From Corallococcus terminator (lineage in GTDB: Bacteria > Myxococcota > Myxococcia > Myxococcales > Myxococcaceae), in the NCBI RefSeq assembly GCF_003611635.1, contig NZ_RAVZ01000057.1, positions 1 through 36,500 on the forward strand: 36,500 nucleotides of DNA, in the 5' to 3' direction. The notes below the pieces were generated by a model. It had not been told where the DNA came from. It was given only the letters and a program-made list of their open reading frames with translations, and did not search any database. Shown here piece after piece: positions 7,103 through 26,458 of this stretch (its first letter is position 1; the number at the start of each line of letters is the position of its first letter). Made by a program: the position numbers and the translations under genes.

Positions 7103-9220
7103 TCAGAACGTGAACGGGAAGTCGATGGGGTCGCCCTGCTTCTGGTGCCTCGGGAAGGACCACCCCTTGATGAGGCCGGTGATGCAGGTCGCCATGTAGC
7201 TCTTGCTGAACTCGTCCGTGCGGCACGACACGCTGCTCGTCTTGCCACTCGTCTGCACCGTCCAGCGCATCACCAGCTTGCCGCTGAGGGACGGATCCTT
7301 CGCCTTCTGCTCGTTCACGCACTTCACGATGGAAGGCTTGTTGTTCAGCACCACCTGCATGATGTCCGACTGCTGGAGGCGCTCCAGCGTGCCGCCGCCC
7401 GGCTCGGGCGGGATGTAGGCCGTGGCCGTCGTCTTGCCCGTGGGCTTCGTGGTGGCCGGCGTCTTCTTCGTGCCGAACAGCTCGTCGAAGTCGTCGTCCC
7501 CGCCTCCGGAATTCGACGAGGACGCCGCCGAGGGCTTCGACACGGTGATCGCCTCCTCGTCATCGTCACGCTGGCCGTTGTTGCGGCTGCCACTGTGGCT
7601 TGAGCCCGGACGACGCTGCGTGTTGCGCGGTTCGACCTTCGCCACCGCCGTCGCCATGTTGGGCGCGGTCGCCGGAGGAGGCGTCACCACGGCGGGAGGC
7701 GGCGTCACCGCCGCTGGAGCCGCCGCCACGGCAGGCGGGGTCCCTGCGGGAGTTCCCGCCGCCACGGGAGCGCCCGCGGCAGGGGTCCCCGCCGGAGCAC
7801 TGTCCGCCGGCGGGGTGGCGGGCGCGGTCGCCGCGACAGCCGCGGGAGGAGGCTGCACCACCGCGGGGGGCGGCGGCATGGGCGGAAGCTCCGCCGGGCG
7901 CGTCTGAGCCACCGCGACCTGTGTCGGCGGGTCCACGGGGCGTTCGGACGAATTGCCGCGCGCGACGTAGACGACCGCGGCACCCGCGATCACGAGCACT
8001 CCCGCCGTCACCGCGACCATCATCCCCGTGCGGCCCTTGCCGCTCGTGGGCGGCGCCGCGGGCGGCGGATAGGCGGCAGGGTAGCCCGGAGGCGGATAGC
8101 CCTGCGGCTGCTGCCCGTAGGGCATCTGCGCCTGCTGCTGCGGATAGGCCTGGGGCTGCGGTGCGTACTGCTGCACCGGCTGCTGCGGCGCATAGCCCTG
8201 CTGCGGCTGCTGCGGATAGGCCTGGGGTGCGGACATCCCCGGAGCCGCGCCCATCATGGCCACCGGCATCGCCGGCGACGACTTCGGCTCCGGTGGCGGC
8301 ATGGGAACATCCAGGAGCCGTGACTGCGACAGCGGCTCGCGATCCAGCGAGGGCGCCGGACGCGGAGGCGGCTTGGTGAGGGCGTCGTTCTCCTCCTTCA
8401 CCAGCGAGGCCAGCACGCTCGCGGCCGAGGGCTTCCAGCCCACCGGCTCATCCGGCGCGGTGGAACCCCCGCCCAGCCCTGGACGGTTGCTGCCCGCGCT
8501 GAAGGCGGACTCCACCGGCCCCGCGGCGATCGTCGGCGACGACGTGGACACCGGCGCGGGCGCGACGATGACCGGCTTGGCCGGACGCGGCGCCAGCACG
8601 GAGGCCAGCTCCGCCGTCTCCGACAGGGGAATCCAGTCGCTGAAGCCCGAACGCCAGCAGAGGTTGTCGGGGCCCACCTCGCCCCGGTCCCAGGCGTCCT
8701 TCACCTTCTCCACCGACCAGGGCCCCACCTGCTTCTCGTCGATGGCGACGTACCACTCGTGCGACGTCGCGGCCTTCGCGTCGTCGGGCGAGGGCTCGGC
8801 GGCCTCGGCCTCGGCGAGCTTGCGCACCGTCTCGGCCTTCGCGGCCTTCACGGCTTCGGCTTCCGCGTCGCGGGCCTGCGCCTTCTGCGAACCGGTGCTC
8901 AGCACCTGGTCGAAGACGGCGCCAATCTCATCCTCTTCGACGTCGGTGAAGAGGCCGCCTTCGGGCGGCGTGCCCAGCGTGGCGGGCAGCCCCGTGCCGG
9001 ACGACTCCACGATGCGTGGCGCATTGGAGTCCGCGGCGCCGCTCTTGGCTTCCGTGGACGCGGGGGTGTCCGCCCCTCCCTCCTTCCCCGCCGATGCTCC
9101 GGCGGGCCTCACCAGGATGGTGTGACCACACTTCTTGCAACGAAGCTTGACCCCCTTCGGGCCAATCTTGTCGTCGCTGATCATGTACTGCGCGCGGCAG
9201 CTGTCGCAGACGAAACGCAT
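7103..9220 (-). CDS. gltJ: Gliding motility protein GltJ (AgmX): zinc ribbon, GYF, TM, TonB-like C-terminus
   Basis: The start is set at 9220, which places the zinc ribbon at the extreme N-terminus; the frame is open further upstream. Order in the 705-residue protein: MJ0042-type zinc ribbon (Cys 5, 8, 28, 31); an Ala/Glu-rich linker with an acidic patch (DVEEDEIGAVFDQ); a GYF_2 domain (about 152-208, QVGPWS...CWRSGFSDWIPL); a Pro/Gln-rich linker (about 330-390); one TM segment (about 398-420); a Pro/Ala-rich periplasmic linker; and an AgmX/PglI-type TonB-like domain (about 605-705) with Cys in IVKC and ATCI. This is the layout of M. xanthus GltJ. There, the cytosolic zinc ribbon and GYF domains deal with the polarity GTPase MglA and its regulator MglB, while the periplasmic part links to the outer-membrane complex. 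It is the last gene of the operon. Confidence 0.94.
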   Translation of the reverse strand: MRFVCDSCRAQYMISDDKIGPKGVKLRCKKCGHTILVRPAGASAGKEGGADTPASTEAKSGAADSNAPRIVESSGTGLPATLGTPPEGGLFTDVEEDEIGAVFDQVLSTGSQKAQARDAEAEAVKAAKAETVRKLAEAEAAEPSPDDAKAATSHEWYVAIDEKQVGPWSVEKVKDAWDRGEVGPDNLCWRSGFSDWIPLSETAELASVLAPRPAKPVIVAPAPVSTSSPTIAAGPVESAFSAGSNRPGLGGGSTAPDEPVGWKPSAASVLASLVKEENDALTKPPPRPAPSLDREPLSQSRLLDVPMPPPEPKSSPAMPVAMMGAAPGMSAPQAYPQQPQQGYAPQQPVQQYAPQPQAYPQQQAQMPYGQQPQGYPPPGYPAAYPPPAAPPTSGKGRTGMMVAVTAGVLVIAGAAVVYVARGNSSERPVDPPTQVAVAQTRPAELPPMPPPPAVVQPPPAAVAATAPATPPADSAPAGTPAAGAPVAAGTPAGTPPAVAAAPAAVTPPPAVVTPPPATAPNMATAVAKVEPRNTQRRPGSSHSGSRNNGQRDDDEEAITVSKPSAASSSNSGGGDDDFDELFGTKKTPATTKPTGKTTATAYIPPEPGGGTLERLQQSDIMQVVLNNKPSIVKCVNEQKAKDPSLSGKLVMRWTVQTSGKTSSVSCRTDEFSKSYMATCITGLIKGWSFPRHQKQGDPIDFPFTF

Positions 9221-9356
9221 CGTTCCCGTAAGCCTCAGAAATGACGGGCGAAATCCCGTCGGAATCGTAGGAGTGGCCACCGGGTGAGATCAAGGACACC
9301 CGCCTTGAACGCCCGCCTGCTTTCAACGCGTGAACCCTCGCGCCGGTCTGAGGGCA
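9221..9356. other. gltI-gltJ gap with two small hairpins
   Basis: GACGGG (9243-9248) pairs with CCCGTC (9255-9260), and CGGGTG (9281-9286) pairs with CACCCG (9297-9302). Both lie within 85 bases upstream of the gltJ start. The ribosome site of gltJ is weak (GGGAA close to the ATG). I see no clear promoter, so gltJ is probably read through from gltI. Confidence 0.4.
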
Positions 9357-12300
9357 CTATTTTCGAGCCTGCACTTCCACGTGTGTGCCAACAGCCACAC
9401 GCAGCTCCTGCAGGTCCTCGGACGTCGCAAACACCAGCAACTCCCGCAGCTTGGTGCGGGACGGGACGCGGAACGACGACCCCGTTTCCCCCTGCACCAT
9501 GCGGCGAACAGGCTCCAGCTCGCCCGCGGCGAAGAGGCCCGCGCGCGACGCGGTGAGCTCCGCGCCCTCCAGCCACGAGCGCACATCCTGTGGCGTCGCC
9601 GTGGGCAGGTAGGCCCGCGCGACCTTCGCCAGGGCGGCCCGGTCCGGCTCGCTCAGGCTCTTGTGGAGCAACTGCCGCTCCACGTCCACCAGCCGCGGAT
9701 CCACCGTGAAGCGCACGTTGCCCACCACCAGGCTGAGCGCGGCCTGCACCACCGCCTCCAGCCGCTCGGGCGCGACGCGCTGGCTGAACGCCAGCTCCGG
9801 ACGGGCCAGGGCCAGCGTCCTCCCCAGGAGGTAGTACACCTCCTTCTGACCCTGCTCCGCGAAGTACTTGCCGCCCACACGCACGCACGCTGGATGCGTC
9901 TGGAGCAGATCCACGTTCACGAGCGGCTCGGGGGCCGGTTCATTGGAGCGCTTCGCCAGGCGCTCGCGCGTGGCCACGAGGAACGGTGAGTACAGCTCCA
10001 CCGCCTCCATGTTGAAGAGCCGCGCGACGTAGCGGTAGTGGTTGACGTGGTACTCCTGCGCCGTCGCCACGTCGATGCGGTGGCGCTTCGGGACCAACTG
10101 GTACTGCGGGAAGGGCACCGCGTACAGGTGTCCCGCCTTCTCGAAGAGCAGGCCCAGCAGCTCCGACAGCGGACCGCGCACCTTCGGGTGGAAGAGCGCC
10201 GTCTGCCACAGCCGATCCGTCAGCGGACGCTGCGCCAGCTCCTTCTTCTTCGCGTAGGGCCCCAGCTTGGTGAGGATCTCCTGCTCATCCTCCCCTGCTT
10301 CTCCCAGGAGCCCCGACACGGCCTGCGCCGCGAGCCACGCGGCGTCGTAGTCCTTGCGCACCGCGGACAGCCGCACCAGGTGGCCCACCACCTTGCGCGG
10401 GTTCTCCGTGTTCGGCAGCGCGCGGCGCAGCGCCACGATGGCCTCTTCCTCGCGGCCCGGCATCTGACCGGCGACCTCCGCGAACGCCTCCTGCATGGCC
10501 GCGTCGTCCGGCAGGCCCTTCGCCGCGACGCCGTAGGCGGCCACCGCGCCCTCGGGGTGCTTGAGCACCTGGAGGTACAGGTCGCCCAACGCGCGCCACA
10601 GCGTCATGCGCGCCGGGTGCGTGTCCGGCGTCTTGGGCAGACGCGAGAGCATGCGCGTGTAGTTCTCCTCCAGGACCTTCCACTGGCGAGCGCCACCGAG
10701 CAGCGCCTCCAGCGCGCTGAAGGCCTCCACGAAGCGGTGGTCCAGGTCGAGCGCGGCGTTGAAGGCCTGCGTCGCGCCCTCCACGTCCTTCAGCTCGTCG
10801 CGGCGGATCTCTCCGAGCGCGAACCACACGCGCTTGGCCTTGTGCGGTTCGGACGCGAGTTCGGGCAGCGACAGCATGCGGCCCAACACGTCCGCGGCCT
10901 TCTGGCCCTGACGCGTCTCGCGCAGCAGGCGGTAGAGCGCGTCCATCACCTCCGGCGCTTCCGGATGCGTCTTGAGGGCACCGCTGAACGCGTCGATGGC
11001 CATGTACGGGTCGTGCAGCTCGTCGCGCGCGATGCGGCCCAGCTCCAGGTAGACCTTGACCTTCGCCTCGCCCTCCAGGCTGTTGACGAGGTCCTGGCGC
11101 AGCTCCGCGGACTTCTCGAAGCGGCCCGCCTTGTCCATCAACGTCACCAGCGCACGCAGCGTCGGCTCGTGCTGCGGGTCGATGGCGAGCGCCTTCTCGA
11201 AGTGGTTCTGCGCGCGGTCCGCCTGGCCCAGCGCGGCGTGCACGTCACCCAACTGCCAGTAGACCTCCACCACCTCCAGGTCCGTCAGCTCCTCGCGGTG
11301 GTGGATGAGGATGGTCTGGAAGACCTTGAGCGCGTCCTCGTACCGCTTCGCCTGCACCAGCAGGTTGCCGTAGCCCTCCAGCGCGGGCAGGTACGTGGCG
11401 TCCAGGCCGTAGGCCTTCTCGTACGAGCTGAGCGCCTTGTCGCGACGGCCCAGCTTCTCCGTCACGTAGCCCAGCCGGTACAACTGGCGGCAGAGGTCCT
11501 GGGCGACGGCGGCGTCCTTCTCCGCCATGGCCTTCTCCGCCATCTTGCGCGTGACGATGTCGAGCATCCGCTCCGCCGACGACCAGTCCTCGCGCGCGAT
11601 GTAGACGTCCGCCAACGGACGCGCCGCCTCCAGGCTGTCCGGGATGTTCTTGAGGGCCTCTTCCCAGTAGTGGGTGGCCGTCTCCCGGTCCTCGCGCGTC
11701 TCCGCGTGGTAGCGCGCGACGTCCAGCAGGGCGCGACCCTTGGCGGCCGGATCATCCGTCTGCTGCGCTTCCTGCAGCAGCGTCTGCTCGTAGCCGCCCC
11801 AGTCCTTCTCCTGCTCCTGGATGCCCTTGAGGGCACGGATGGTGGGCAGGTGGCCCGGGTCGATGGCGAGCGCCTGCTGGTACGCGGTCCGGGCGCTGGC
11901 CATGTCCGACAGCATGTCCTCGTTGATCTTCCCCAGACGGTGCCACAGCTCCACCGCCACCGGGTTGTTGCCCACGACCTGCGCTTCCTTCTGCAACATC
12001 TCCAGCGCGAAGGGCCAGTTGCCGCTGCGCTCGTAGAGGTTGCCCAGCGCGTGCAGGGCCTGGCGGGACTCGGGGTCCGTGGCGAGCGCCGCGTGGTAGC
12101 TGTTCACCGCGCGGTCCACCACCTTGAGCTGCTGGTACTGGACATTGCCGATCTCCACGTAGAGCTCCGCCTGCTCCTGCGGACTCACGGTGAGCGCGAG
12201 CTGGCGCTCGTAAGCGGAGAGGAGGTCCTCCCACCGGGCCTGCGCGCGGCGCAGCCGGATGAGGGACTTGATGGCCGGCACGTTCTGCGGGTCGATGGAG

Positions 12301-15300
12301 AGCACGCCCTCCACGCACGCGTCGGCGTTCGCCGGGTTCTGGTACGTGTCCTCCCAGATGGTCGCGCTGCGGAAGAGGACGCGGACCTTCTCGCGGTAGT
12401 CCTGGCTCAGCTCCAGCATCCGCTCGTAGATGGCGAGCAGGTCCGCCGGCTGATCCAACCGGATGTGCAGCCGCTCCAGCGACTCCAGCGCCTCGCGGTT
12501 GACGGGGTCGAACTCCAACGCCATCCGGAACGCGGAGACTGCGGACTCGTCGTCCTTCAGGTCGCGCTCGTAGACGGTCGCCACCTCCACCTGGATGCGC
12601 GCACGCTCTTCCGCGGACGACGCGAGGTCGCGCGCCCGCAGCAGCGTGGTGGCCACGTCGCGGTGGGCCCCTCCGCGCCGGTAGAGCTTCGTGAGGACGC
12701 CGAGCGTCTCCTGATCCGGCTCCAGCTCCAGCGCGCGCAACAGGGCGCTGGCCGCTTCGATGGGGTCTTCCAGCGTCTCATCCCAGACGCGGGCGATCTC
12801 CTTGAGGATGCCCTTGCGCGCCTCGATGGAGCCCGCCGCTTCCAGCTTCTGCTCCAGCGCGACGACGTACTCGCGGTCGCGACCGCGCCGCTGGAACACC
12901 GCAGCCAACCCGTCCAGCGCGGTGGCGTTGGTCGGGTCGAACTCGAGGATCTTCCGGAACGCCGCTTCGGCGGCCTGCGGATCATCCAGGCGCGTGTCGT
13001 GGATGCGCGCCAGCGTGGCGTACAGCCGCTCCGCGAGCGGTCCACGGGGCAGCTCGTCCGCGACCTCTTCGTAGACAGCCGCCAGCTCCTCGTGGCTGCC
13101 CGTCTCGTCCGCGAGGCGTTCGACCTCCTCGCGCAGCCCGTCCTCCGTCGCGTCCAGTTGCAGCGCGCGGCACAGCGCCAGGAAGGCCACGTCCTTCTGG
13201 CCCAGGCGCTCTTCCTGCACACGGGCGATTTCCCGCAGGGCCGCCAGCTTCTCCTCGTCGGTGACGAGGTGGGGCATGTAGCGGTCCATCACCGTCGCGT
13301 ACGCACGCCAGTCGTTGTGCGTGCGGTACAGCGCGCACACGCGCTCGTAGGCGGTGCGGTTGGCCGGATCCAGCTCCAGCACCTTCTCCAGCGCGCCCGC
13401 GGAGAGCTCGGGCTTACCGCCCTGCCCTTCCCACAGCTCCGCGACGGTGAAGTACGCGGCGATGGCCGGGTCACGCTCCTCGGTCTGCAGGTGCACCTGG
13501 ACCTTGAGTTCCAGGGCGCGCACCGCGTCGTTCCACGCGCGCAGCGACACGGACAGCGCGTACACACGCTCAAGGTCGGGGACCACGTGCGGCTCGACCT
13601 CCAGCGCGCGGCGGGCCGCGTCCAGCGACTCCTCGCGCCGGCCCATGCCCGCGAGCACTTCCGCCAGGCGCAGGCGCAGCGCCTTCACGCCCTCGCTGTT
13701 CTCCTGCAGCGGGACGAGGCGGCGCAGCACACCCACCAGTTCCTCGCGCTGCCCCGTCTCGTCGTACAGCTCGCGCAGCGTGTCCAGCACGCCCCGGTGC
13801 CGCGCGTCGCGGTCCAGCGCCGCCTTGAAGTAGGGCACCGCCGCGTCCGGCTGCTTGAGCAGGCGGTAGACGACACGGCCCAGCCGCTCGTTGAGGCGCA
13901 CCACCTCGCGCGGATCCAACGTGATGGCCAGACGGCCTTCGAGCAGCTCGCGCAGATCCTGCGGACGGCCCGCGCGCTCGTACAGTGACTCCAGCGCGGA
14001 GAAGACCTGCTCGTTGCGCGGGTTCTTCGCCAGCAGCTCGCGGTACAGCTCGATGGAGCGGCCCAGGTCCGACAGCCCCTCGGCCGACACCTGCGCCATC
14101 TTGCCGAGCACGCGGTCGCGCTCGCTGCCGACGACCTTGTCCGCCTGGAGCTTCAGGATGCCGTAGAGCTTCTCGGACGCACCCGCGCCCTCGTAGATGC
14201 CTTCCAGCAGCCGCGCCGAAGCGAGGTGCCCCGGCTCCAGCGCGAGGATGGCCTCGTAGGCGCTGGCCGCGCGGTCCGGGCTGTCCAGCCGTTCCTGGTA
14301 AAGCTGCCCCAGGCGGAAGAGGAAGCCCAGCTTGTCCGCCGGAGTGGTCGCCCCGGTCGCCAGCGCTTCCAGCACGCCGGCCAGCTCCGGCCACGCCTCC
14401 AGGTGGAGATAGAGGCGGTCCAACGCGATGAGCGAGCGCTCCTGCACCGAGGCATGCAACGTGCGCGCACGCTCGAAGTAGGACACCGCGCGGTCCGGAT
14501 CGCGCAGGCGCGTCTCCAGGACCTGGCCCAGCTTGAGGCACACCTGGGCCGCGTCGGCGGCCTCGGCGATGCGCGGCAGGGCCTCTTCGTAGAGCACCAC
14601 CAGTTCGTCGTAGCTGCCCGCGACGTCGGTGGCGTTCTCCAGCCGGCGGCGCACCTCGCCGTCGTTCGGGTCCTCCTTGAAGCCGCGGTAGAGCGCGAGG
14701 AAGGCAAGCTCGCTCTCCCCCTGCGTCTCGCGCAGCGTGGCCAGCTCACCGAGCAACTGCTTGCGCTCGACCGCGTCCGGGGACACGCCCACGCGCGTTT
14801 CAATCAACTGCGCCAGCCGCGCGACGTCGCCGCTCGCGCGGAAGGCGCGCAGCAGCGTCTCCACCGCCAGCAGGTTCTGGGGCTCGCGCGCCACCAGCGC
14901 TTCCATCCGGCCCACCGCGCCCGGGTGGTTGGGCTGCACCGACAGCACCTCGCCGTACAGCGCCAGCGCGCCCACCTTGTCGAGCAGCTTGGACTCGCGC
15001 ACCGTCGCGAGGCGGAACTTCAGTTCCAGTCCCTCCTCCGTCGGCATCAGCGCGATGCGCCGCGCGAGGACGTCCGCGAGCTCCGGCCAGCGCTCCTGCT
15101 TCTGGCAGAGCTCTTCCATCCGCGCGAGCGCGGCGGCGTCATCCGGCTTGAGCTCCAGCAGGCGCCGGAACGTGGCCAGCGCGCCCAGCGTGTCCTTGAG
15201 CTGCTCCTCCTGCAACGCGCCAATCTGGAAGAGCACCGTGGCGCGACGCGCCGGCTCCTCCGACAGCGCGAGCTGACGGCGCAGCACTTCCAGCAGCTCC

Positions 15301-18300
15301 GACGGACGGCCCTGCGACGCCACCAGCCGCGCGGTGCCATCCAGCGCTTCGTTGTCCGTGGGCTTGAGCTCCAGGACGCGCTTCCACGACGCCAGCGCTT
15401 CGGCCGGCTCGCCCAGGTCGACCTGGAGCCTCGCCAGCGCGCGGTACAGCTCCGCTCGGGCGGCGTCGCCCGCCTTGGGCGCGACCTCCATCAGCACCGC
15501 GCACAGCTCCTCCGGCGCCTCCGCCTTGTCCACCAGCGAGACGCACAGCTCCAGCGAGCGCGGATCCTCCGGCAGCTCACGCAATGCGCGCGTGGCCGAC
15601 AGGAACGCCATCTCCGCGTTCTCCAGCGCGGTGGCGTAGATCTCCGAGATGCGGCGCAGCAGCGCGGCGCGCTCCTGCGGCACGGCCTCCGCGGAGGCAC
15701 GCGACTCCAGCATCTCCACCTGCTTCAGGTGGTTGCCCACCGACGCGAAGACGGGCTCCAAGGCACTGGCCGCCGCGCCTCGCAGCGGGCTCTCCGAGCG
15801 CGCCAGCTCCTCCAGCGCGCCCACCGCACCCGGGTGGCCCGCGCGTCGCGCCAGGACCGCCTGGTACAGCTCCAGGGCGCCTCGCGGATCATCCAGGCGC
15901 GAGACCTTCAGACGGCCCAGGCGCACCCGCAGGTCGGACGCCTCTTCCTGCGCATCGCGCGCATCCGCCATCTGGATTTCACGCTCGACGTGCTGCGCGA
16001 GCTCCGCCCAGCGCTCCATGTCCGCGAGCACGCGGCCCAGGAGCTTCAGCGCGTTGGCGTTCTCCGGCCGGCGCTCCAGCACCTCGCGGTACGTCTGCGC
16101 CGCGAGCGACTTGTCCGCCAGCGTCTCCTCGGCCAGATGCGCCAGCTCGAAGAGCAGGTTCACCTGCGAGGCGGGGTTGCCCTCGGCGGCCACCTGCCGG
16201 CGCATGACGAGCGCCAGCTCCCGGTGCGCGGCCGTGCGCCGGTGCACGCGGGCGATGGCCTCCAGCACCGTCTTGTTCATCGGGTCGCGCCGGCTCACCT
16301 GCTCCCACGCGCGCACCGCCAGGTCGTAACGCTTCAGGCGGTTGTCGTAGATGGCCGCCAGCCGCCGCCACAGGTCGCCCGCCAGGGGCTCCGCGGGGTC
16401 GCGCTCCAACTGATCCTCGTACGCCGCCGCCACCTCCTCGAAGGAACCCGAGTCCGCCGCGAGCCGCTCCAGCTCGTCGCGCACGGTGGCTTCCGTCGGC
16501 TGCTCGTTGAACGCACGCAGGCGCGCGACGAACGCGAGCGACGTCTGGCCCAGGCCCTCGCGCAGGATGGCGATCTCCTGCAGGCGCTCCAGCCGCTTCT
16601 CTGGCGGCACTCCGGGCAGGAGCACCTCCAGCACGTCCACCAGCTTCCGCGTGTCGTTGAGGCCCCGGTAGACGGGCTCCAGGAGACGCGCTGCTTCCAG
16701 CCTGGGGGCGTCATGCGCGAGCAGGCGCTCCAGGCCGGCCACCACCTGGCCGTCGCCCGGCGACAGCTCCAGCAGGCGCCGGTACACGGGCAGCGCCTCG
16801 GAGGGGCCGACCTCCTTCTCCAGCAACTGCGCGCGGCGCAGCAGGTACGCGCGCCGTCCCGGTTCGTCCGCCGCGAGTTCGGCGAGCTGATCCAACACGT
16901 CCGCCTGCTCCACGAAGCGGCGCGTCTTGGCGTACAACTTGTCGAGCGCGAGCAGTCCTTCCGGCACCTTGCTCAGCGCCAGCGCGGAGCGGAGGACCTC
17001 GATGGCCTTCGCGTCCTCGCCCGAGCTCGCGTAGGCCTCGCCGGCCTTGAGCAGCAGGCCCAGCCGCGTCTCCGGATCCGTGGCGAGCTGCGCCTGACGG
17101 GCGTAGACCTCCGACAGGCTCTTGGCGTTCTGGCCCTTCTCGTACAGCCGGGACAGCGCCTCCAGCGCCTGACGGTCCTGCGGCGCATCCGACAGCAGGT
17201 TCTTCCAGAGGCGCGTGGCCTCCTCGGGCTGATCCAGGCTCTCGCGCAGCTCCGCCGCCCGGCGCAGCAGGTCCAGGGCCACCGGGTCGCCGGAGGTCAG
17301 GTCCACCGCGGCGCTCTCGTAGATCTCCGCCAGCACCTCGTGGCTGCCCGTCTCGCGCGCCAGCCGCTCCAGGTCCGGCCGCACGCCATCGCGGTCGAGC
17401 CCGTTGGCGAACGCCTTCACCGACGCCATGAACGCGAGCGACGGCTGCTGCATGTCGCGCTCGTAGATACGGCGGATCTCCCCCGCGAGGATGATCTTCT
17501 CCACCGTGAGCGCGGACTCCATCCGCGTCTCGCGCAGCGCCACGCGGCGGGCATGGTCGCCCACTTGCAGGAGCACCTTGTCCAGCACCTCCAGCGCCGC
17601 CCCGCTCGTGGGCACCGCCGCCTTCACCCAGGCCTCCAGCGCGGCGCGCGCGCCCGGGTGGCCGGGGTCCTCGGTCAGGATGCGCTTGTAGAGGCCCAGC
17701 GCCGCGTTGGCGTCGTCCAGCTCCGTGCGCAGCAGCTCCGCCAGGCGGAACGATACCTCACGGCCCTGCGGGCTCTGCCCCTCCTGGTTGCGCCGCAGCG
17801 CGAGCGTCCACGCCAGGTCCTTGGAGCGGTTGAGGTCCGTGTAGAGCCGGTCCAACGCGGTGGCGGCCTCACGCTGCGCGGGGTCGCGCTCCGCGATGGC
17901 GCGCCACGCGGCGGCGGCGCTCTCCTTGTCGGTGAGCTTCGTCTCATGAAGCAGCGCGGCCTCGCGCAGGCACACGAGCTGATCCGCGGGCTCCTGCGTG
18001 GCCACCGCCAGCTTCTCCAGCACCTCCGCCAGCGCCGCCCACTCCTCGCCCGCGCGGTGCAACCGCTGCAGGGCCCGCAGGCTGTCGAGGTTGCCCGGCT
18101 CCAGCAACAGCAGCGCGCGCAGGGCCTTCACCGCCCCGGGCCGGTCGTCGAGCTTCTTCTCCTGCACTTCCGCCAGCTCGCGCAGCAGCGCCGCGCGGGC
18201 CGGGCCGACATCGCCCTCTTCCGTCAGCTCGCTGATGATCTCCGCGAAGCTGTCGAGCGAGTCCGCGTCCTCCGCGGCCTGACGCGCGGCGGCCCGCAGG

Positions 18301-21300
18301 CCCGCGTCCGCCGGGGCCATGCGCAGCGCCCTTGCAAGCGACGCGAAGGCCAGCTCCGGCTGCCGCAGGTGCGCCAGGTGCACCTGGGCCGCGGAGCGCA
18401 GTGCCTGCACGCGGCCCGCGTCGTCGCGCGCCACTTCGGCGAGCACGTCCAGCGTCGCCACCAGCTTGCGGTGCTCCTTGGTGCGCTCGTACGCGGGAAT
18501 CAACGCGCGCGCCGCCGCCTCGCGCGACGGGCCCGAGGCCAGCATCGCCTCCAGCGCCGCGAGCGCGTCCGGATCCGACGGGCGCTGCCGCAGCAGGTCC
18601 CCGTAGCTCTGCACCGCCTCCGCGCTGCCGTCCTGCGAACCCTGCAGCAACTGCGCGCGCCGCAGCTTCAGCCGCGACACGTGGTCCGCGTCACCAGCCG
18701 TCTCCGCGAGGCCAATCATCCGCGCCAGGGTGTCCCCCAGCTCGCGATCCATGCCCGCCTTCTCATAGAGCTCGGCAAGGCGCGGCAGGTGCCGGCCCTC
18801 CTCCGCTCCATGCGTGATGGCGGACTGGAGCGCCTCCGCGGCCTGCAGCGGACGGCCCAGCTCCACGTTGAGGTCCACGAGGCGCAGCAACAACTCCAGA
18901 CGCTCCGGCCCGCGCGTGGCGTGGATGCGCTTGCGCAGCAGCGTCTCCGCGTCCGCCGAGCGGCCCGCGCGTCCGTACAACCTGACGAGGCGCTGAAGCA
19001 CCTGCGGGGCCTCGGGCGCGCGCGACAGCGCGGCCTCCAGCGCGGTGATGGCCTCCGCCGCCATCCCGCCCTCCTCCGCCAGCACCGACGCCTCGGAGAG
19101 CAACTGCACGGCCAGGGTCGGCTCCTCGGCCTCGGTGGCGAGCGTGCGCAGCACGCGTCCCAGCTCCGCGTGGGCGGACAGGTCGCGCGCCAGTCGCGCC
19201 GTCTCCGCGCGCCCCGCTTCGTCCTTCGGCTCCTCGCGCACCATGCGCAGCCGCGTGTCGAAGGCGGCCCGGCTGTCCGCGAGCTGCTTCTCGTGGATGC
19301 TGGCCAGCACCGTCAGCAGCCGCTTGCGCGTCGCCGCGTCCGTCGTGGAGTCCAACTGCTGCTGGAGCGCCGCCACCTGACGCTGATGGTCGCCCGTGCG
19401 ACCGTAGTGGTTCGCCAGCGCCTCGGTCAGCGCGACCGTGCGCACGCCACCGGCCGCCAGCCGCTCCAGGCCGCCCACCACCACACCGGTGGAGACGTTC
19501 TCCGCGAGCAGCGACAGGAACAGGTCCGCCGCGTCCTCCTGACGGTTCAGCCGCTCCGCGTACAGCTTCGCCTGCCGCGCGGTCCACTCGTTGCGCTCGA
19601 GCTGCGACTCGGCCAGCGTCGCGAGCTTCGCCGCCAGGGACGCGGCCTCCTCGAACTTCGACAGCGCCACGCACAGGGTCTGGAGCCGCTGCACCGCCTG
19701 GACATCCTCGGGCGCAAGCTGCACCCACTGACGCACCAGCGCTTCCAGTTCCTCCGGGGGCGCGCCCGCCGCCTCGCGCCGCGCGATGTCCGTCTCCAGC
19801 CGCGTCTTCGGATCATCCGCCAGCGCCGCGACCGCCTGCAGCGACTTCACGGCCTCGCTCGCCGCCGAATCCCCCGGCACGCGCGAGAGCACCTCGCGCC
19901 ACGCGGCCTCCGCGCGCACGGGATCCGCCAGCGGCCCCTGGAGCAATTGCGCCAGGTGCCGCCACAGCGCCACCGCGACCGCCGGAGGCGCCGCTGCCTG
20001 CGCGGCCCGCAGGAGCGCGTGCGCCAGCGCCGGCTGCGCGTTGGCCTTCTCCGCGTGCTCCACCACCGTGTTGAGCAGCAGCGGCCGTCCCGGCTCCAGC
20101 TCCAGCGCGCGCGCAAGCACTTCAAAGGCGCCGCGCTCGTTCTCCTGCTCCTCGAACATCAGCGCCAACGCTTCGCAGAACGCCACGCGCTCGGCGCGCG
20201 GACGCGGCGCGAGCATGGCCAGCTCCAGGAGCGGCAGCACTTCATCCAGCTTCTCGTCTTCCGCCAGCAGGCGCGACAACTGGAAGGCCGCGAGCGCGTT
20301 GGTGGGCTCCAGCTTCAGGGCCGCTTCCAGGTGCTCGCGCGCCGCGTCCGAATCCTTCAACTGCTGCATGCACAGGTCCGCCAGCCGCAGCCGCAGACTC
20401 GCCTGCTGCGCGCGGTCCTTCACCGTGCCCAGGTAGCGCTCCAGCGTGGCCACCGCCTCCAGGTAGCGCTCCTGGCCCAGCATCAGCTCCGCGGCGAGGC
20501 TTGCCGCATCGGCGCGCGACGGATCCGCCGCCACGGCCTTCTCGAAGGCGGCCAGCGCTCCGGCCGCGTCATTCATCCGCCCCAGCTTGAGCGTGCCCAC
20601 GCGCAGCCACAGGTCCACCTGCGCCGTGCGGTCGCGCGCCTCGCCCGCCATCGCCTCCAACTGCACGATGGCCGGACCATGGTCGCCCGCTCGCGCCGCC
20701 ATCCGCTCGATGAGCGTGAGCGCTTCAGGCATGCCCGGCCACAGCAGGAAGCAGCGGTCCAACGCTTCCTTCACCTTGCCGGTGGCGGTCGGCTCGTACC
20801 AGGCGAACAGCTTCGCCACGAGCAACGACAGTCGCGCCGCGCTCTTCCGGTCGCGCTCTTCCAGCGACATGCCTCGCAGCATGCGCACCTTGTCGCGCCA
20901 CACCTGCTCGAAGCGCTGCATCGCGCGGGTGGCCTTCTCCGCGCGCGCGTTCTGCGGATCCAGCTCCCGCGCCACGTCCAGCACCTGCTGCGCCAGACCG
21001 TGCTCGGTGGGATCGTCCACCAGTCGCTCCGCGAGCCCGGCGTACTCCTCCGCCATGCCCGCGTCGCCCAGCGCCGCGCGCTCCCGTTGCAGCGCCTCGA
21101 AAGCTGGCTGGAAGCGCTCCTCGCTGAGCAGCAACTGCCGCACGCGCCGGAACGTCGCGCGGTCCGGCTTCACCCGGGCCGCGCGCTGCAGGCACAGCAC
21201 CGCGCGGTCGCGCCGGAAGAGCTTCTGCTCGTACAGGTCCGCAGCCTTCAGGTAGTGGCCCGCGCTCTCCTCGCCCTGGGTCGCGGCGCCCAACCGCTCC

Positions 21301-21632
21301 AGCACGTCCACGAGCGCCGCCGAGTCCTGGCGGATCTCATGCAGTCGCTTGAGCCCACGCAGCGCGGGCATCGGATCCTTCGCGACCAGCAACGCGCGCT
21401 TGAGCAGATCCTCCGCGCGCGGAGCATTGCGCTGCCGCTCGTGCGCGAGCTCCGCCGCGCGGCACAGCAGTCGCGCCGCCTCTTCCGTGGGCACATCCCG
21501 CGAGCGTCCCTCGTACAGGCGGATCAGCTCCTCGACCCGGCCTGATTTCTCCAGGGCCGCTTCGGTCTCGACGAAGGAGCGGTCATCGGTCACACGCAGC
21601 GTGGGACGCGCAGGGGTGGAAGGCAGTTCCAT
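9357..21632 (-). CDS. gltI: Giant TPR gliding motility protein GltI (AgnA)
   Basis: The only sensible start is ATG at 21632 ([17 protein letters not shown]), giving 4,091 residues. The frame is open to 21719, but that extension runs through a hairpin and is Pro-rich. There is no signal peptide or TM segment, so the protein should be cytoplasmic. Residues about 40-3,780 are almost entirely TPR-like helix pairs of the kind ALALYxxVLxxxPxxxxALxxLExLY. They are organised in a higher-order unit of about 300 residues marked by the motif (q/d)xxxAFxxxxRAf. The last about 260 residues are different: [51 protein letters not shown]. Position, size and the following gltJ identify it as GltI, which from memory is about 3,800 residues in M. 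xanthus and is needed for A-motility. It probably acts as a large cytoplasmic scaffold at focal adhesion sites. It alone fills a third of the window. Confidence 0.93.
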
Positions 21633-21654
21633 GATGCTCGGGGGCCAGGGGGGT

Positions 21655-21703
21655 GAATGAAACGAGGGCGCCAGCGGCCGGAGTGTACCGGCCGCGGGCG
21701 CCC
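21655..21703 (-). terminator. Terminator/attenuator-like hairpin between the RG-rich TPR gene and gltI
   Basis: GGGCGCC (21666-21672) pairs with GGCGCCC (21697-21703), and after one A-G mismatch GCGGCCGG (21674-21681) pairs with CCGGCCGC (21688-21695) around a 6-base loop. The minus-strand transcript continues TCGTTTCATTC, a U-rich tail. It lies 36 bases after the upstream stop and only 33 bases before the gltI ATG, so it sits inside the operon. Confidence 0.6.
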
Positions 21704-21739
21704 CCGGGCAATCGCGCAAAACCCGTCAACCGATGGGAT

Positions 21740-23650
21740 TTATTGGCTTTCTTGCTCGCCAGCCGAGGAAGCATTTTCCGTCGATGCCGCCGCGCCATCC
21801 GCGTCGTCACCGGCGTCCGACTTGTCCGCCGCAGGGGGCGTCGCCGGGGCGTCGGGGAGGGCCTTCGCCCGCTCCAGCCCCGCGCTGTCGTTGAGCTGCG
21901 TGTACAGCGCGACAGCCTTGTCCTTCTGCTGCAGCTCTTCTGCGATCTGCGCGGCGCGGGGCAGGTCGCCCAGCTTCTCGTACAGGGGCAGCGCCTTGTC
22001 CTTGCGACCCGCCTGCGTCCACGTCTCCGCGGCCGCGGCCGTGTCGCCCAGGAGCTCCAGCCACCGGGCACGGCCGGCGGGCTTCTGCTCCTGTTCGGCG
22101 CGCGCCAGCTCACGCTGCGCCAACTCCTTGGCCTCGTCCTCGAGGGTGAGCCGCTGCATGAAATGGAACGCCTTGGGCGGAGGCAGGGGGCTCAGCACCT
22201 CCACCGCTTCGCGCCGCTGGCCCACGGCCACCAGCAGGGTCGCCGCGCCCAGCCGGTCACCACGCTCCACCAGGGCCTTCACCTCCAGGCCCCGGATGCG
22301 GTTGGCGCTCGGCAGATCCCGGGCACGCTCGTACGCCTTGCGCGCCAGGGTCAGCTTGTTGGCGCGCTCGTACGCGAGCGCCGCCTGGTCGAACTGGCGC
22401 GCGCGCTCGTACAGGCCGGCGACCTTCTCGAAGTCGGCCTTGGCGACGTAGTGCTCCATGAGGAGCTCGTACGCGCCCGCCTTCTCCAGCGTGGGGCCAA
22501 TCTGATCCGGAGGCAGCGTGCCCACGAGGCGGCGGGCCGCGTCGTTGTCCTGCCCGGCCAGCGCCGTGCGCAGCGCGCTCTTCAGGTCCCCGCCCGCCTC
22601 GAAAAGACGGGTGGCGTCCGCGAAGCCGTTGTTGCGCTCGTACAGTCGCGCCGCGTCGCGCGTGCGGCCCATGCCTTCAAGCTGGGTCGCCTGCTCCTTC
22701 CAGTCGCCCGTCAGCTCCGGCATCGGTGCGCGCTCGGGGCGCTCACCGCGGGCCGGACGCTCGCCACGCTCCGGACGCTCGGCCCGGGGCGGACGCTCAC
22801 GACGCTCGCCGGCACCGGCGGCGCCACGCTCCGGACGGTCCCCACGGGGAGGACGCTCGGAACGCTCCCGGCGCTCGCCAGGACCGCCGCGCTCCGGACG
22901 CTCGGACCGCTCACGCGGCGCCTCGCTCCGGGCAGGAGCCTCGGGCTCCGGCGTCGGCTCGCGGCCGCTCAGCGTGAAGGCCGCCTGCGAACGCTCGCGA
23001 TCACCCGCGGCGCGCCAGACGCGGCCCACCAGGGTCATCACGTCCAGCCAGGCCGCGTGCTTCTCCTTCGCGGGATCCACGGCCGGAGCCGCAGGAGCCG
23101 CTTCGGCGGGCGCGGCACCTTCGCCAGCGCCTTCGGCGGCCGGAGCCTCCGAGGACGCTTCGGCCGGAGCCGCCGCCTCGGTGCCTTCCGTCGTCGCCGC
23201 CGCTTCCGGAGCCGCGGACTCAGCGCCCGCTTCCGGCAGGGCCGGCTTGGACTGACGCTGCACGCGCAGCATCGTGGTGATGAGGCGACCGCGCGTGTTG
23301 AGGTCCAGGTCGTCCAGCGACTTGAGGTTCATGGGCCGCAGCGAGCGGACGATGGCCTCCAGCGGACCCTTCTCCGCGCCAAAATCGTTCTTGGAGAGCG
23401 CCTTCTCCAGCACGCTCAGCTCGGCGATGACGCGCTGGCCCGGACCCACCGGACCCGCATCTCGGTCGCGGCCACGGCCTTCGCCCCGCCCGCGCCCTTC
23501 ACCACGGCCACCGCCGCCGGGACCACCAGGACCGCCACCACGACCGCCGAAACCACCCGGCCCGTCACGGCGAGGCCCCTGACCCGGCGCGCCCCCGTTA
23601 GGACCGCGTCCACCCGGACGCGCTCCACCGCTTCCATTCTCCTGAGCCAC
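21740..23650 (-). CDS. Arg/Gly-rich TPR-like protein of the glt cluster, unnamed
   Basis: GTG start at 23650 with GGGAG 6 bases upstream. The ribosome site lies at the very end of gltH (12-base gap), so the two are translationally linked. The 636-residue product has no export signal. Residues 1-70 are Gly/Arg/Pro-rich with RG and GRG repeats. Residues about 75-135 look folded and helical (VIAELSVLEKALSKNDFGAE). An Ala/Glu/Pro linker follows, then RPERG/ERRER repeats at about 238-312. Residues about 315-600 are TPR-like helix pairs (KVAGLYERARQFDQAALAYE), and the tail is Asp/Ser/Ala-rich. Automatic annotation may mislabel such RG-rich proteins as helicases, but no helicase motif is present. 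The position suggests a cytoplasmic partner of GltI, possibly the unnamed M. xanthus gene(s) between gltH and gltI. The disordered RG segments could support RNA binding or condensation; that is inference. Confidence 0.85.
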   Translation of the reverse strand: MAQENGSGGARPGGRGPNGGAPGQGPRRDGPGGFGGRGGGPGGPGGGGRGEGRGRGEGRGRDRDAGPVGPGQRVIAELSVLEKALSKNDFGAEKGPLEAIVRSLRPMNLKSLDDLDLNTRGRLITTMLRVQRQSKPALPEAGAESAAPEAAATTEGTEAAAPAEASSEAPAAEGAGEGAAPAEAAPAAPAVDPAKEKHAAWLDVMTLVGRVWRAAGDRERSQAAFTLSGREPTPEPEAPARSEAPRERSERPERGGPGERRERSERPPRGDRPERGAAGAGERRERPPRAERPERGERPARGERPERAPMPELTGDWKEQATQLEGMGRTRDAARLYERNNGFADATRLFEAGGDLKSALRTALAGQDNDAARRLVGTLPPDQIGPTLEKAGAYELLMEHYVAKADFEKVAGLYERARQFDQAALAYERANKLTLARKAYERARDLPSANRIRGLEVKALVERGDRLGAATLLVAVGQRREAVEVLSPLPPPKAFHFMQRLTLEDEAKELAQRELARAEQEQKPAGRARWLELLGDTAAAAETWTQAGRKDKALPLYEKLGDLPRAAQIAEELQQKDKAVALYTQLNDSAGLERAKALPDAPATPPAADKSDAGDDADGAAASTENASSAGEQESQ

Positions 23651-23662
23651 GTGAATCTCCCG

Positions 23663-24301
23663 CTAGAACGCGTAGCGAATGTTGGGCGCCACCGCGAACC
23701 CGAAAGCGCCCTTGGAGGCGAGGTAGTTCCCCGTGACCTCCAGCCCCACCGAGAAGTGGCGCAGCCGCGTGTAGTACTCCACTCCGGGCCCGGCAAACAC
23801 AAGAATGTCGGAATCCGGGAGGAGCTTCTTGGGAGAGAACATCGCGTACCCCGCGCCGGCGCGCGCGTAGATCCACGTGCGCTTGACCTCCTGGCTGTCG
23901 GCGAAGCCCACCAGCCTGGCGCGCAGGACGGCGCCCGGCACCAGCATGGTGAAGTCACCGGAGGCCGCGCCCTGCGAGTAGCCGATGTAGTCGGAGCCCG
24001 CCGTGTTCGCGGAGCCCATGAAGAAGACGCCCAGCGACAGGCGCTCCCCCAGGTCGACGCCCAGCTCCACCTGGGCCATCTGGCCGGACGAGAAGGGCCG
24101 GGGCCCCTGCGACGCGGGCGGGTTGGCGATCCACGACGGGCCGCCATACACGGCGAAGTACACACCGCGCTCGACCTCGTCGAAGGTCACCGCGGGCCGG
24201 TCCCCGGCTGCGGACCCGGCGCTGGGAGTCTCCTGAGCGACCGACACCCCGGGAAGGAGGAAGGCGGCACACAGGGCGAGAGGAGCAAGGACTTTCTGCA
24301 T
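23663..24301 (-). CDS. gltH: Outer-membrane gliding protein GltH (CglE)
   Basis: The start at 24301 gives 212 residues with a clear Sec signal peptide (MQKVLAPLALCAAFLLPG..., cut after VSVA). The open frame to 24397 is non-coding leader. The mature protein alternates beta-type stretches (GVYFAVYGGPSW, AQVELGVDLGERLSLGVFFMG, TWIYARAGAGYAMF, RHFSVGLEVTGNYLAS) and ends in FAVAPNIRYAF. The terminal aromatic residue is typical of outer-membrane barrels inserted by BamA. By position between gltG and the RG-rich gene it is GltH, which I recall as the contact-stimulable motility gene cglE of M. xanthus. It would be part of the outer-membrane Glt subcomplex. Identification rests on synteny and barrel features rather than on a signature motif. 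Confidence 0.85.
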   Translation of the reverse strand: MQKVLAPLALCAAFLLPGVSVAQETPSAGSAAGDRPAVTFDEVERGVYFAVYGGPSWIANPPASQGPRPFSSGQMAQVELGVDLGERLSLGVFFMGSANTAGSDYIGYSQGAASGDFTMLVPGAVLRARLVGFADSQEVKRTWIYARAGAGYAMFSPKKLLPDSDILVFAGPGVEYYTRLRHFSVGLEVTGNYLASKGAFGFAVAPNIRYAF

Positions 24302-24335
24302 GGAAGGCAGCCTGGGGGGGCAGGACTCCCGCGGG

Positions 24336-24388
24336 GAACGGGAGGAGGAAGTGAAGAAGCGGGCAGCCCTGTCGCCAGGGCCGCCCGC
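24336..24388 (-). terminator. Terminator-like hairpin between gltG and gltH
   Basis: GCGGGC (24359-24364) pairs with GCCCGC (24383-24388). An inner CCCTG (24367-24371) pairs with CAGGG (24376-24380) around a 4-base loop, with a 2x2 internal loop between. The minus-strand transcript continues into a pyrimidine stretch (TTCTTCACTTCCTCC). It starts 30 bases after the gltG stop. It is weaker than a classic terminator and may attenuate rather than stop transcription. Confidence 0.5.
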
Positions 24389-24417
24389 GCGGCACACGGA
24401 TGAAGTTCGAGTCTAGG

Positions 24418-26379
24418 CTAGTCGCCGGCCTGCTTGAAGATGAACGGGTACGTCACGATCACGGAGCCGCCACCCTTGGGCTCCGGGAACTTCCAGGTGC
24501 GCACGCGGCCCGCGACGCAGGTCTCCAGGTCCGAGTTGCCCGCCGTGGACTGCGCGACGTTGGACGTGGCCACCGAGCCCGTGGCGCTGATGATGAACTT
24601 CACGGAGACCTTGCCGCCCAGCTTCGGGAAGCGGTTGAGCAGGCTCTCGTAGCAATAGCGGATCTGCCCGCGGTTGCGCTGGATGACCTGGCGGATGAGC
24701 TCCTTGTCCAGCGAGCCCATGACCTCCGGGTCCGAGGACGTGATGCCCACGTCCACGCTCTGCTTGCCGCCGAGCGTGCCCACGCCGGTGCCGTAGCTGC
24801 CGCTGCCGCCGCCACGACCCTTGGTGCCGATACCGCCGATGCCGATGCTGTCACCGGTGCCGCCACCGCCACCGCCGCTGCCGCGCAGGCCCAGGCCGCC
24901 GAAGCCGCCCGCGTCGCCCGCCTTCGCGCCGAACATGTTGCCCATGGCGCTCTTGAGCTCGCCGCCCAGGCCCGCCTTGCCGAAGATGGTGGAGATGCCG
25001 CCCTTGCCGCCGCCGAAGATCTTCGCGGTCAGGGCGCGCGCCTCGTCCTTCTTGTTCGGGTCGCCCTTGGGCGCGGTGCGGTTGGCGGCCTTGGGCTCGT
25101 TCTTCTTGCCCATCTGGCCTTCGTCAGCGCGGGCCTTCTGGGCCATCTCGCCCGACTTCTTCTCCTTCTGCTGGTTGAGCTTCTCCAGGAACTTGTTCTT
25201 CTGGGTCTCGGGCGCCTTGATGATCAGCTTGGCGATGCGCGCGTCGTTGCCCGCGAGCTCGTCCGCGTACTCATCCCCTTCCCCGCTGCTGTTCATCGAA
25301 TGGATGACGAACGCGGTGGCGATGAAGAACATCACCAGGAAGATATTGAGCGCCGTGTAGTCCAGGTTCTCGCCCAGCGGCACGACGACGCGCTTGGGCG
25401 CCGACTGCAACTGCGCCTCCAGCGTGAGGCCGCCCAGGTCCACCCAGAGGAAGTCGTCGCCCTCCAGCGTCAGCGCGTACGCATCGCCGTCGCTGCTGGC
25501 CTTGCCCGACTCCATCACCGCTTCCAGGTCGAGCGTTTCGCCCTTGCGGGTCAGCTCGCCCTTCATCTTGCGCGCGAAGCGCACGGAGAAGGTCTGCCCG
25601 TCGGTGCGCAGCACTTCGAAGGAGGGGCCGCCCAGCTTGGCGTCGCCCATCACGAAGTCCACGCCCTTGGCGCTGCCCACCGTGAAGCTCTTCTTCACGC
25701 CCGGGGCCAGGAAGAACTCACCCACGCGCTGATCGCCCCAGAGCAGGCGCACCGACGCGCCCAGCGGGCCGTTGGACTTGGTGCGGCGCACGGTGCGCAC
25801 GCGCGGCGCCTCCTCTTCCTCCGAAGGGGCCTCCGGAGCGGCGGCGGCGGGCGCGACGATCTTGTTCTTCTGCGTGGGCGCGACCGACGCATCCAGCGCC
25901 GCGGCGGCGGGCGGCGGAGGCGCGGCGACCGGAGCCGCCACGGGGGCGGCGACCGGCGCGGCCACGGCCTGCGCGATGGCGGCGGCGGAAGCGCCGGCCA
26001 CGGGGGCCACGGTGGTGTTCTTTTCGGTGGGCGCGTCCGCCTGCGCGACGGCGGCGGCCAGGTTCACCGCGGCGACGGCGGCCGGGTTCTCCAGGCGGAT
26101 GGTGGTGCCACCCACGCGGACCTCGTCACCGAAGGAGACCTGCCCCTTGTTGACGCGCTTGCCGTTGACGTAGGTGCCTTCGACGCTGCCCATGTCGATG
26201 ATGGACATGGAGCCGTCGCCGGCCACTTCGATGACGGAGTGGATGCGGCTGACCTTGTCGTCCTCCAGGCACAGGTGCGCGGAGGAGAGACGACCAATCT
26301 TGATGATGTCGCGCTCGTAGTCCTTGGAGGCGACCAGCGTGTCGCCCTTGAAGACCTTGAGTGTCAGGGGTACGGCCAT
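24418..26379 (-). CDS. gltG: Gliding motility protein GltG (PglI): FHA domain, TM, TonB-like C-terminus
   Basis: ATG at 26379 with GGGAG 8 bases upstream; 653 residues. Residues about 5-100 are an FHA domain with the usual signature: GR at 29-30, SRIH at 44-47, and GTYVNGKRV at 68-76. It could therefore bind phosphothreonine partners in the cytoplasm. An Ala/Pro-rich linker and a beta-rich segment (about 215-335) follow, then one TM helix (about 341-361, NIFLVMFFIATAFVIHS). A charged, helical periplasmic stretch leads to a long Gly-rich linker (about 450-545). The end is an AgmX/PglI TonB-like domain (about 550-653) with Cys in RYCYE and ETCVAG. It is thought to be an inner-membrane component that works with GltJ, carrying force or conformational change across the periplasm. 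Confidence 0.94.
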   Translation of the reverse strand: MAVPLTLKVFKGDTLVASKDYERDIIKIGRLSSAHLCLEDDKVSRIHSVIEVAGDGSMSIIDMGSVEGTYVNGKRVNKGQVSFGDEVRVGGTTIRLENPAAVAAVNLAAAVAQADAPTEKNTTVAPVAGASAAAIAQAVAAPVAAPVAAPVAAPPPPAAAALDASVAPTQKNKIVAPAAAAPEAPSEEEEAPRVRTVRRTKSNGPLGASVRLLWGDQRVGEFFLAPGVKKSFTVGSAKGVDFVMGDAKLGGPSFEVLRTDGQTFSVRFARKMKGELTRKGETLDLEAVMESGKASSDGDAYALTLEGDDFLWVDLGGLTLEAQLQSAPKRVVVPLGENLDYTALNIFLVMFFIATAFVIHSMNSSGEGDEYADELAGNDARIAKLIIKAPETQKNKFLEKLNQQKEKKSGEMAQKARADEGQMGKKNEPKAANRTAPKGDPNKKDEARALTAKIFGGGKGGISTIFGKAGLGGELKSAMGNMFGAKAGDAGGFGGLGLRGSGGGGGGTGDSIGIGGIGTKGRGGGSGSYGTGVGTLGGKQSVDVGITSSDPEVMGSLDKELIRQVIQRNRGQIRYCYESLLNRFPKLGGKVSVKFIISATGSVATSNVAQSTAGNSDLETCVAGRVRTWKFPEPKGGGSVIVTYPFIFKQAGD

Positions 26380-26458
26380 GAAGGGGGCTCCCGGTTCGCT
26401 TTGGCGCTCGTTGGACAACGGCTGCGGCGGAAGGTTCCCGCCGGCAATTCGTGGTGAA

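Follow-up and report, generated by a model that had tools for sequence, protein, structure and literature searches.

The window analysed here, a stretch of 36,500 nucleotides from Corallococcus terminator (contig NZ_RAVZ01000057.1), carries on its minus strand gltI (agmK; the orthologue of MXAN_4863 of Myxococcus xanthus), the gene of one of the largest and little studied parts of the myxobacterial gliding machine. The open frame covers 9357-21719 (4,120 codons), and translation probably starts at the Met at 21632, the point at which orthologues such as that of locus L001 begin (L numbers stand for homologous loci). The gene encodes a tetratricopeptide repeat (TPR) protein of about 4,100 amino acids between gltG/gltH and gltJ in a G1 cluster; its TPR nature is seen in significant matches to profiles of the Pfam TPR clan and in a helix-turn-helix array. 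It is 51-94% identical to 18 members of the window's family (code f1, taken as Myxococcaceae on the basis of named relatives), whose open frames measure 4,088-4,139 codons. Of 195 Myxococcota genomes, 153 have GltI-like proteins that share its C-terminal domain (query of 282 residues, E 1e-10). Over residues 448 to about 2560, the TPR array of GltI is a real super-repeat of about 305 residues. The features of the gene are the following.

9357..21632, minus: gltI (agmK), 4,091 amino acids from the Met at 21632; the open frame reaches 21719
19518..20378, minus: block a, residues 448-734, AF Phe F532, 43 bits; no odd helix, and 17 residues fewer than most other families have here
18603..19517, minus: block b, residues 735-1039, AF Phe F820, 150 bits; odd helix (from the sequence) and TPR pairs
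17688..18602, minus: block c, residues 1040-1344, AF Phe F1125, 160 bits; 17 helices in the model
16782..17687, minus: block d, residues 1345-1646, AF Phe F1430, 167 bits; 17 helices in the model
15864..16781, minus: block e, residues 1647-1952, AF Phe F1730, 170 bits; 17 helices in the model
14955..15863, minus: block f, residues 1953-2255, AF Phe F2039, 163 bits; modelled to residue 2199
14040..14954, minus: block g, residues about 2256-2560, AF Phe F2340, 172 bits; judged from the sequence
18537..18572, minus: predicted odd helix of block c, residues 1050-1061, by DSSP of the AlphaFold2 model (model residues 51-62)
17622..17657, minus: predicted odd helix of block d, residues 1355-1366, AlphaFold2 model
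16722..16751, minus: predicted odd helix of block e, residues 1657-1666, AlphaFold2 model
15798..15833, minus: predicted odd helix of block f, residues 1963-1974, AlphaFold2 model
12960..13439, minus: terminal AF module h, residues 2761-2920, AF Phe F2846, 96 bits (108.9 bits in the scan of the own genome); no odd helix
10350..14039, minus: plain TPR array with the TPR-pair period and no 305 register; contains module h
9360..10202, minus: conserved C-terminal non-TPR domain, residues 3840-4120 (anchor query residues 3839-4120)

The first-pass annotation of this DNA had placed eight copies of an Ala-Phe (AF) motif along the array and read their spacing as a higher-order repeat of about 300 residues. 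All eight motifs lie in the GltI frame, each within 9 bases of the place originally given, with Phe codons starting at 20126, 19262, 18347, 17432, 16532, 15605, 14702 and 13184, and their successive spacings are 288, 305, 305, 300, 309, 301 and 506 residues (864, 915, 915, 900, 927, 903 and 1518 bases). The super-repeat itself was borne out at three levels. When the orthologue profile of GltI was compared with itself by hidden Markov model alignment, in windows of 200 residues each set against the whole protein, the top off-diagonal match fell in the block register for 33 of the 38 windows starting at residues 481-2331, for 2 of the 29 starting at 2381-3781 and for none of the 9 starting at 31-431. 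The bare sequence behaved likewise under Smith-Waterman alignment, with 30 of 38 windows in block register, as against 0-3 of 19 in each of 12 sets with permuted 36-residue segments and 1 of 16 on the downstream TPR array. Finally, the mean profile score per column of blocks b-g was +0.164 in register and fell to between -0.04 and -0.24 when the blocks were displaced in either direction by one to four times 72 residues. A self dot-plot with the 34-residue period alone, the pattern that had been named as contradicting the repeat, is therefore not what GltI displays. The super-repeat does not extend over the whole protein. It covers residues 448 to about 2560, and downstream, beyond the 2 of 29 windows in block register, 10 of 29 find their best match at a multiple of 72 less than 400 residues away.

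The repeating unit had been put at 8-9 TPRs; its size of about 305 residues stands, whereas its composition is now defined as eight TPRs, arranged in four pairs of 72 residues, plus one odd helix of about 17 residues, which accounts for the spacing (4 x 72 + 17 = 305). A basic repeat is thus nested in GltI within a longer homologous unit. Blocks b-g share one plan, in which the end of a TPR pair is followed by an 'ALExLLxxxPxxxxAAxxLxPxY'-like element that adds the 17 residues, then by a pair with 'ER..LL.elA', the AF-type TPR 'lAFxxxxRAfxxxP', the segment 'LERLA.e.G..EELA' and further TPR pairs. The AF-type TPR lies some 65-75 residues after the odd helix and carries an aromatic residue directly after the conserved Ala, at what we take to be position 21 of TPR numbering, instead of three residues further on. 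The odd helix is present in six modules (b-g) and absent from the flanking AF modules a and h; the interval from g to h, of 505-506 residues, equals 7 x 72 and has no odd helix. The short first interval of 288 residues is about 305 in other families, owing to 16-18 extra residues at window residue 627 that are present in 18 of 19 proteins from outside the window's family (alignment of 41 proteins). That this difference might be a missing odd helix of block a was considered and rejected: it sits 95 residues after F532, and block a has no odd helix in any of the six proteins inspected (the window, L027, L032, L036, L039 and L041), so the two are separate features. In L035 there is in addition an insertion of 16 residues near 440.

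An AlphaFold2 model of residues 1000-2199 was computed from 36 sequences (one segment set, 36 of 42 listed segments used) and reached a mean predicted local distance difference test score (pLDDT) of 89.2 and a predicted template modelling score (pTM) of 0.38. For blocks c, d and e alike it predicts exactly 17 helices, the first of each block being a short helix of 10-12 residues, the odd one, whose confidence (82-89 per ten residues) lies little if at all below the mean. According to the model, the fold of a block is a TPR superhelix, as in the consensus protein CTPR8, OGT and LGN/Pins, but these are far shorter than GltI and superpose with root-mean-square deviations (rmsd) of 14-21 (OGT Z 14.3, LGN 13.6, CTPR8 12.6; helical repeats commonly give Z values below about 13). 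To our knowledge, none of the three has an odd helix every eight repeats. With the whole 1,200-residue model, the best Foldseek matches are giant TPR scaffolds of the IFT-A and Ski complexes (E 1.6e-16 and 3.5e-15), presumably IFT139 and Ski3, yet with TM-scores of only 0.11-0.15, and we know of no comparable super-repeat in either protein.

For the comparison between genomes, a module profile was built solely from blocks b-g of the window and of nine family members. In ordinary proteins of the family, modules b-g score at least 95 bits and ordinary TPR pairs at most 62. Within the window's genome the strong module is confined to GltI: with 150 of 277 candidates scored, 21 matches reached E 1e-6; the 7 of at least 100 bits are all in GltI, and the other 14 score at most 52 bits, those in other TPR frames at most 50. 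The eight-module layout recurs in other classes of Myxococcota, for example in L032, with anchors at 425, 735, 1039, 1344, 1656, 1960, 2268 and 2772. Module spacings were surveyed in 68 representatives of 120 proteins of at least 2,500 amino acids (139 in all, some being the same record twice; L020, L051, L054 and the paralogues L041 and L042 included), counting modules of at least 58 bits and assigning classes within 8 residues. The 390 spacings are dominated by 72x4+17 (249), followed by 72x7 (47), 72x3+17 (19), 72x5+17 (15), 72x2 (15, neighbouring pairs over the threshold), 72x4+34 (11), 72x2+17 (6), plain 72x4 (5) and 72x8+34 (5, with a sub-threshold module between); 12 are other multiples and 6 lie outside all classes.

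That the array had grown by duplication of a block is supported by the homology of the blocks in register, by a tree in which they group by position and by tandem copies in one paralogue. The homology in register extends over blocks a-g and module h, which are therefore products of tandem duplication. In a maximum likelihood tree of 101 blocks from 15 proteins (quick search, with the Shimodaira-Hasegawa-like approximate likelihood ratio test, SH-aLRT, as sole support), blocks from sequences of the order cluster by position, with SH-aLRT values of 95 for a, 91 for b, 96 for c, 99 for d, 99 for e, 100 for f and 99 for g; the same tree gives L035 no block e. Beyond the order, where positions are only partly resolved (L032 and L033 in the tree, L032 against the window by identity), each single block position is likely, although not proven, to be shared by ancestry across the phylum. 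The paralogue L041 is known from one genome, as an open frame located on a contig of 82.6 kb in a metagenome-assembled Myxococcales genome that also has an ordinary GltI, L013. Its block order is abcd(ef)(ef)(ef)g, both by the tree and by plain identities, its blocks being 34-48% identical to their counterparts in the window or L013 and at most 33% identical elsewhere. The repeated blocks are 35-44% identical to one another and so are no echo of the assembly. A general ancestor of two blocks was contemplated, top self-comparison lags near 608 being common, and set aside: the tree joins neither c with e nor d with f with support, so that duplication of a pair is claimed for L041 only.

The main growth of GltI is ancient, given that 19 of the 23 ordinary family loci (L001-L018, 51-94% identical to the window, and L024, at 40% identity) have no internal gap of at least 10 residues against it (for L001-L018, first 100 and last 60 columns excluded). 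Block number is accordingly fixed in most Myxococcaceae, but not in all. Four family loci are shorter: about 1,000 residues are missing from the N-terminus of L019 and L054, L020 falls short by 572 codons, and L051, compared with L024 (82% identical, same genus code), has lost 211 residues across block b, leaving an interval of 377. This loss is the sole recent change that was seen, and there was no sign of ongoing growth among the 23 ordinary loci of the family. L019 and L054 come from two genomes of one genus, where the GltI frame measures about 3,120 codons, by real loss or frameshift. In ten pairwise alignments, the summed gaps amount to 301 residues in L035, 297 and 305 in L036, 226 and 311 in L038, 237 in L037, 383 in L030, 140 in L025 and 211 in L051, with only a terminal gap in L024; all these sums lie within 8 of 72n or 72n+17. 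Whole blocks were lost in L035, L036 and in one of the two gaps of L038, and the others correspond to about 72x2 (L025), 72x3 (L051), 72x3+17 (L037 and the other gap of L038) and 72x5+17 (L030). The idea that length differences are mostly whole blocks was dropped after these sums, and the claim is now one of units of 72n or 72n+17. Length follows block number in part, from 3,507 codons in L036 (5 blocks) and 3,821 in L035 (6 blocks) through about 4,100 with 7 blocks to 5,294 in L041 (11 blocks).

At the level of function, the account favoured here, with somewhat more than even confidence, is that GltI is a giant TPR solenoid whose duplicated blocks of about 305 residues act as a spacer or spring of defined length, the superhelical turn, the docking edge and the partner being its conjectural parts. 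According to the available text of PMC7885266, consensus TPRs form eight repeats per superhelical turn, so that one block of GltI, with eight TPRs, would make roughly one turn. Local packing could be set by the odd helix and the shifted Phe, as a phase corrector or a hinge, and successive blocks would then present equivalent surfaces at equal spacing. A review describes GltI together with GltG as a scaffold that connects the Agl motor with MreB (PMC13104615); the repeat region could there be a stiff spacer or spring with equivalent docking edges, placed between the side of the motor, GltG and GltJ and that of MreB, and the conserved plain array and C-terminal domain might anchor the scaffold. 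Several observations weigh against this account. With its pTM of 0.38, the model does not fix the path of the solenoid as a whole, and regular CTPR structures superpose poorly on block e (8chy, Z 12.6, rmsd 13.9 over 272). Outside the window's family, the scores of modules and TPR pairs overlap, with some modules below 40 bits and some pairs as high as 63, the blocks of L032 and L033 join their position in the tree only partly, and pairwise identity does not resolve positions at the phylum level. The conservation profile over the phases of the block has only a mild peak. In some lineages the interval is 233 or 377 in place of 305, and the recent loss in L051 took about three TPR pairs instead of a whole block, so an exact 305 is not required; the N-terminal losses of L020 and of L019/L054, for their part, could not be divided into blocks.

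A bolder form of the spacer reading takes GltI as an analogue of titin and nebulin, in which small repeats are also grouped in a larger repeat within a giant scaffold. Those proteins are bound along a filament and a ruler role has been proposed for them. By analogy, each super-repeat would be one turn with docking edges in register, and block number would set the spacing or valency between motor and track, tuned by gain or loss of blocks, block pairs or TPR pairs. This extension is somewhat unlikely; titin and nebulin have different folds and are eukaryotic, and for GltI a filament of matching period would be hypothetical.

The alternative that survives best, and which is tentatively kept as a possibility, is that the register records duplication history only. 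The 305 spacing would then be a fossil of growth, with the odd helix and the AF Phe copied along and selection acting on total length and foldability. Within the GltI of the window the blocks are mutually only 18-31% identical, and conservation varies little with block phase, having a smoothed maximum of 2.61 bits at the AF segment and a second of 2.50 at the partner of the odd helix over a mean of 2.24 bits for residues 448-2540, the plain downstream array being more conserved (2.57 bits; profile computed without L019 and L020). The intervals of 233 and 377 in other lineages and the recent loss from L051 of 211 residues, which is not a block, point the same way, as does the resemblance of the AF positions to packing positions. 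Such a fossil would, however, have to persist as 249 of 390 spacings with an odd helix across the phylum, where distant sequences are only about 30% identical, and to be kept in layout by 19 of the 23 ordinary family loci.

Unlikely, in turn, is a multivalent ladder, with one site per block, close to the AF motif, that would bind a multicopy partner (MglA, AglZ, the AglR/Q/S motor or MreB subunits). It would suit the AF segment being the best conserved stretch of the block and occurring in every one of the eight modules, even the two that lack the odd helix, and eight TPRs per turn would place such sites on one edge; yet the margin of conservation is small, and both partner and interface are hypothetical. 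The motif occupies what we take to be helix-B positions 20/21/27/28 of the TPR, which in the consensus pack between repeats, so it would be expected to be at least partly buried, and it may be a packing feature. The first-pass suggestion of a regularly repeated special face, perhaps with one binding site per block, is, with conservation by phase so nearly flat, neither supported nor excluded by the alignments. Less probable still is a mechanical spring, in which the odd helices are hinges or weak points and the solenoid yields block by block under motor load. A helix defect once per eight TPRs would fit a scaffold that the excerpt of PMC13104615 places between motor and MreB track, but the confidence of the odd helices in the model hardly departs from the mean. 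That an ordinary TPR array fell into a 300-residue spacing by chance is scarcely credible and was rejected, for although TPR arrays yield off-diagonals at many multiples of about 36, the register goes far beyond the TPR-phase, spacing and permutation controls and recurs in other classes.

In the literature searched, mostly open-licence texts, no description was found of a super-repeat, an odd helix or block-wise length change in GltI; 'super-repeat' with 'tetratricopeptide' gave a sole match, on plant leucine-rich repeats, and MXAN_4863 gave PMC3169522 only. The available text of this paper reports 4132 amino acids for GltI of M. xanthus and lists agmK among the gliding motility genes hit by transposons. 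The two proteins are alike in length (about 4,100 amino acids), in being made of TPRs, in having no signal peptide and in lying between GltD/E/G/H upstream and GltJ downstream; they differ in that the table of PMC3169522, in the part available, lists only two TPR stretches, near residues 3114-3218. GltI offers a clear bacterial two-level super-repeat (36/72 inside 305) with a readable evolution. Its defined block borders make the protein divisible, single blocks being expressible and testable and whole blocks removable in frame, and its length changes by block or TPR pair constitute a natural experiment on a ruler, ladder or spring.

The C-terminal domain was modelled by AlphaFold2 (pLDDT 93, pTM 0.90). 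Structure comparison with VIA-align returned zinc peptidases in 38 of the 40 best rows (all but ranks 19 and 39), with Z of at most 6.9, below the caution level of 8; lethal-factor entries account for ten rows, and in several of these the alignment is to the N-terminal part of lethal factor. Among gluzincin peptidases, BlaR1 (Z 6.9) and ZMPSTE24 (Z 6.5) stay below the level of a sure match. Foldseek gave no confident fold match for the domain (E at least 0.28), and Pfam only DUF6101 at E 0.058 for the window copy and nothing for two relatives. None of 45 sequences, chosen from 58, has an HExxH motif, and an RPE after the helix is conserved. From the model, the domain is possibly a pseudo-peptidase used as a binding domain.

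The neighbours of gltI match the glt G1 cluster of M. xanthus. Their names rest on domain content and order relative to the table of PMC3169522, as far as it is available, and no gene of the window was identified as GltF.

28298-32191: GltD, by domain content and gene order
26859-28298: GltE, by domain content and gene order
24418-26418: GltG, by domain content and gene order
23663-24397: GltH, by domain content and gene order
21740-23650, minus: AgmV-like protein, 636 amino acids, with Clathrin/IFT140-type TPR matches
7103-9280: GltJ, with zinc ribbon and GYF domains

Among 23 loci inspected, a GltJ match (in some the zinc ribbon only) lies beside GltI in 16 of 16 ordinary loci, and the flanks of the paralogues L041/L111, L042, L060, L061, L062 and L064, a few kb at most, contain no match to GltD, E, G, H, J or AgmV. 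L041, the same record as L111, is flanked by what sequence reading names a PilZ-like protein, an outer-membrane barrel-like protein and an ABC ATPase. L060, L061, L062, L064 and L065 are short GltI-like paralogues of one family (f11), with 1,821-2,201 codons, the same C-terminal domain and mostly Lys-rich N-termini, and second short frames occur in families f14 and f17 too.

The AgmV-like gene occupies the place where PMC3169522, in its available text, discards MXAN_4864/65 as likely pseudogenes, although agmV figures among its transposon hits. Of 56 loci with a match (some being the same record twice), 17 were tested, and in every one of these the homologous frame stays open for 558-688 codons, with 627 codons in M. 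xanthus AM003; the nonsynonymous rate (dN) is below the synonymous rate (dS) in the 15 loci where dS could be estimated. Opposite gltI, on the plus strand, an open frame of 2,439 codons runs antisense at 14226-21545, with a G+C content of about 71-75%, and is most likely a by-product of codon use.

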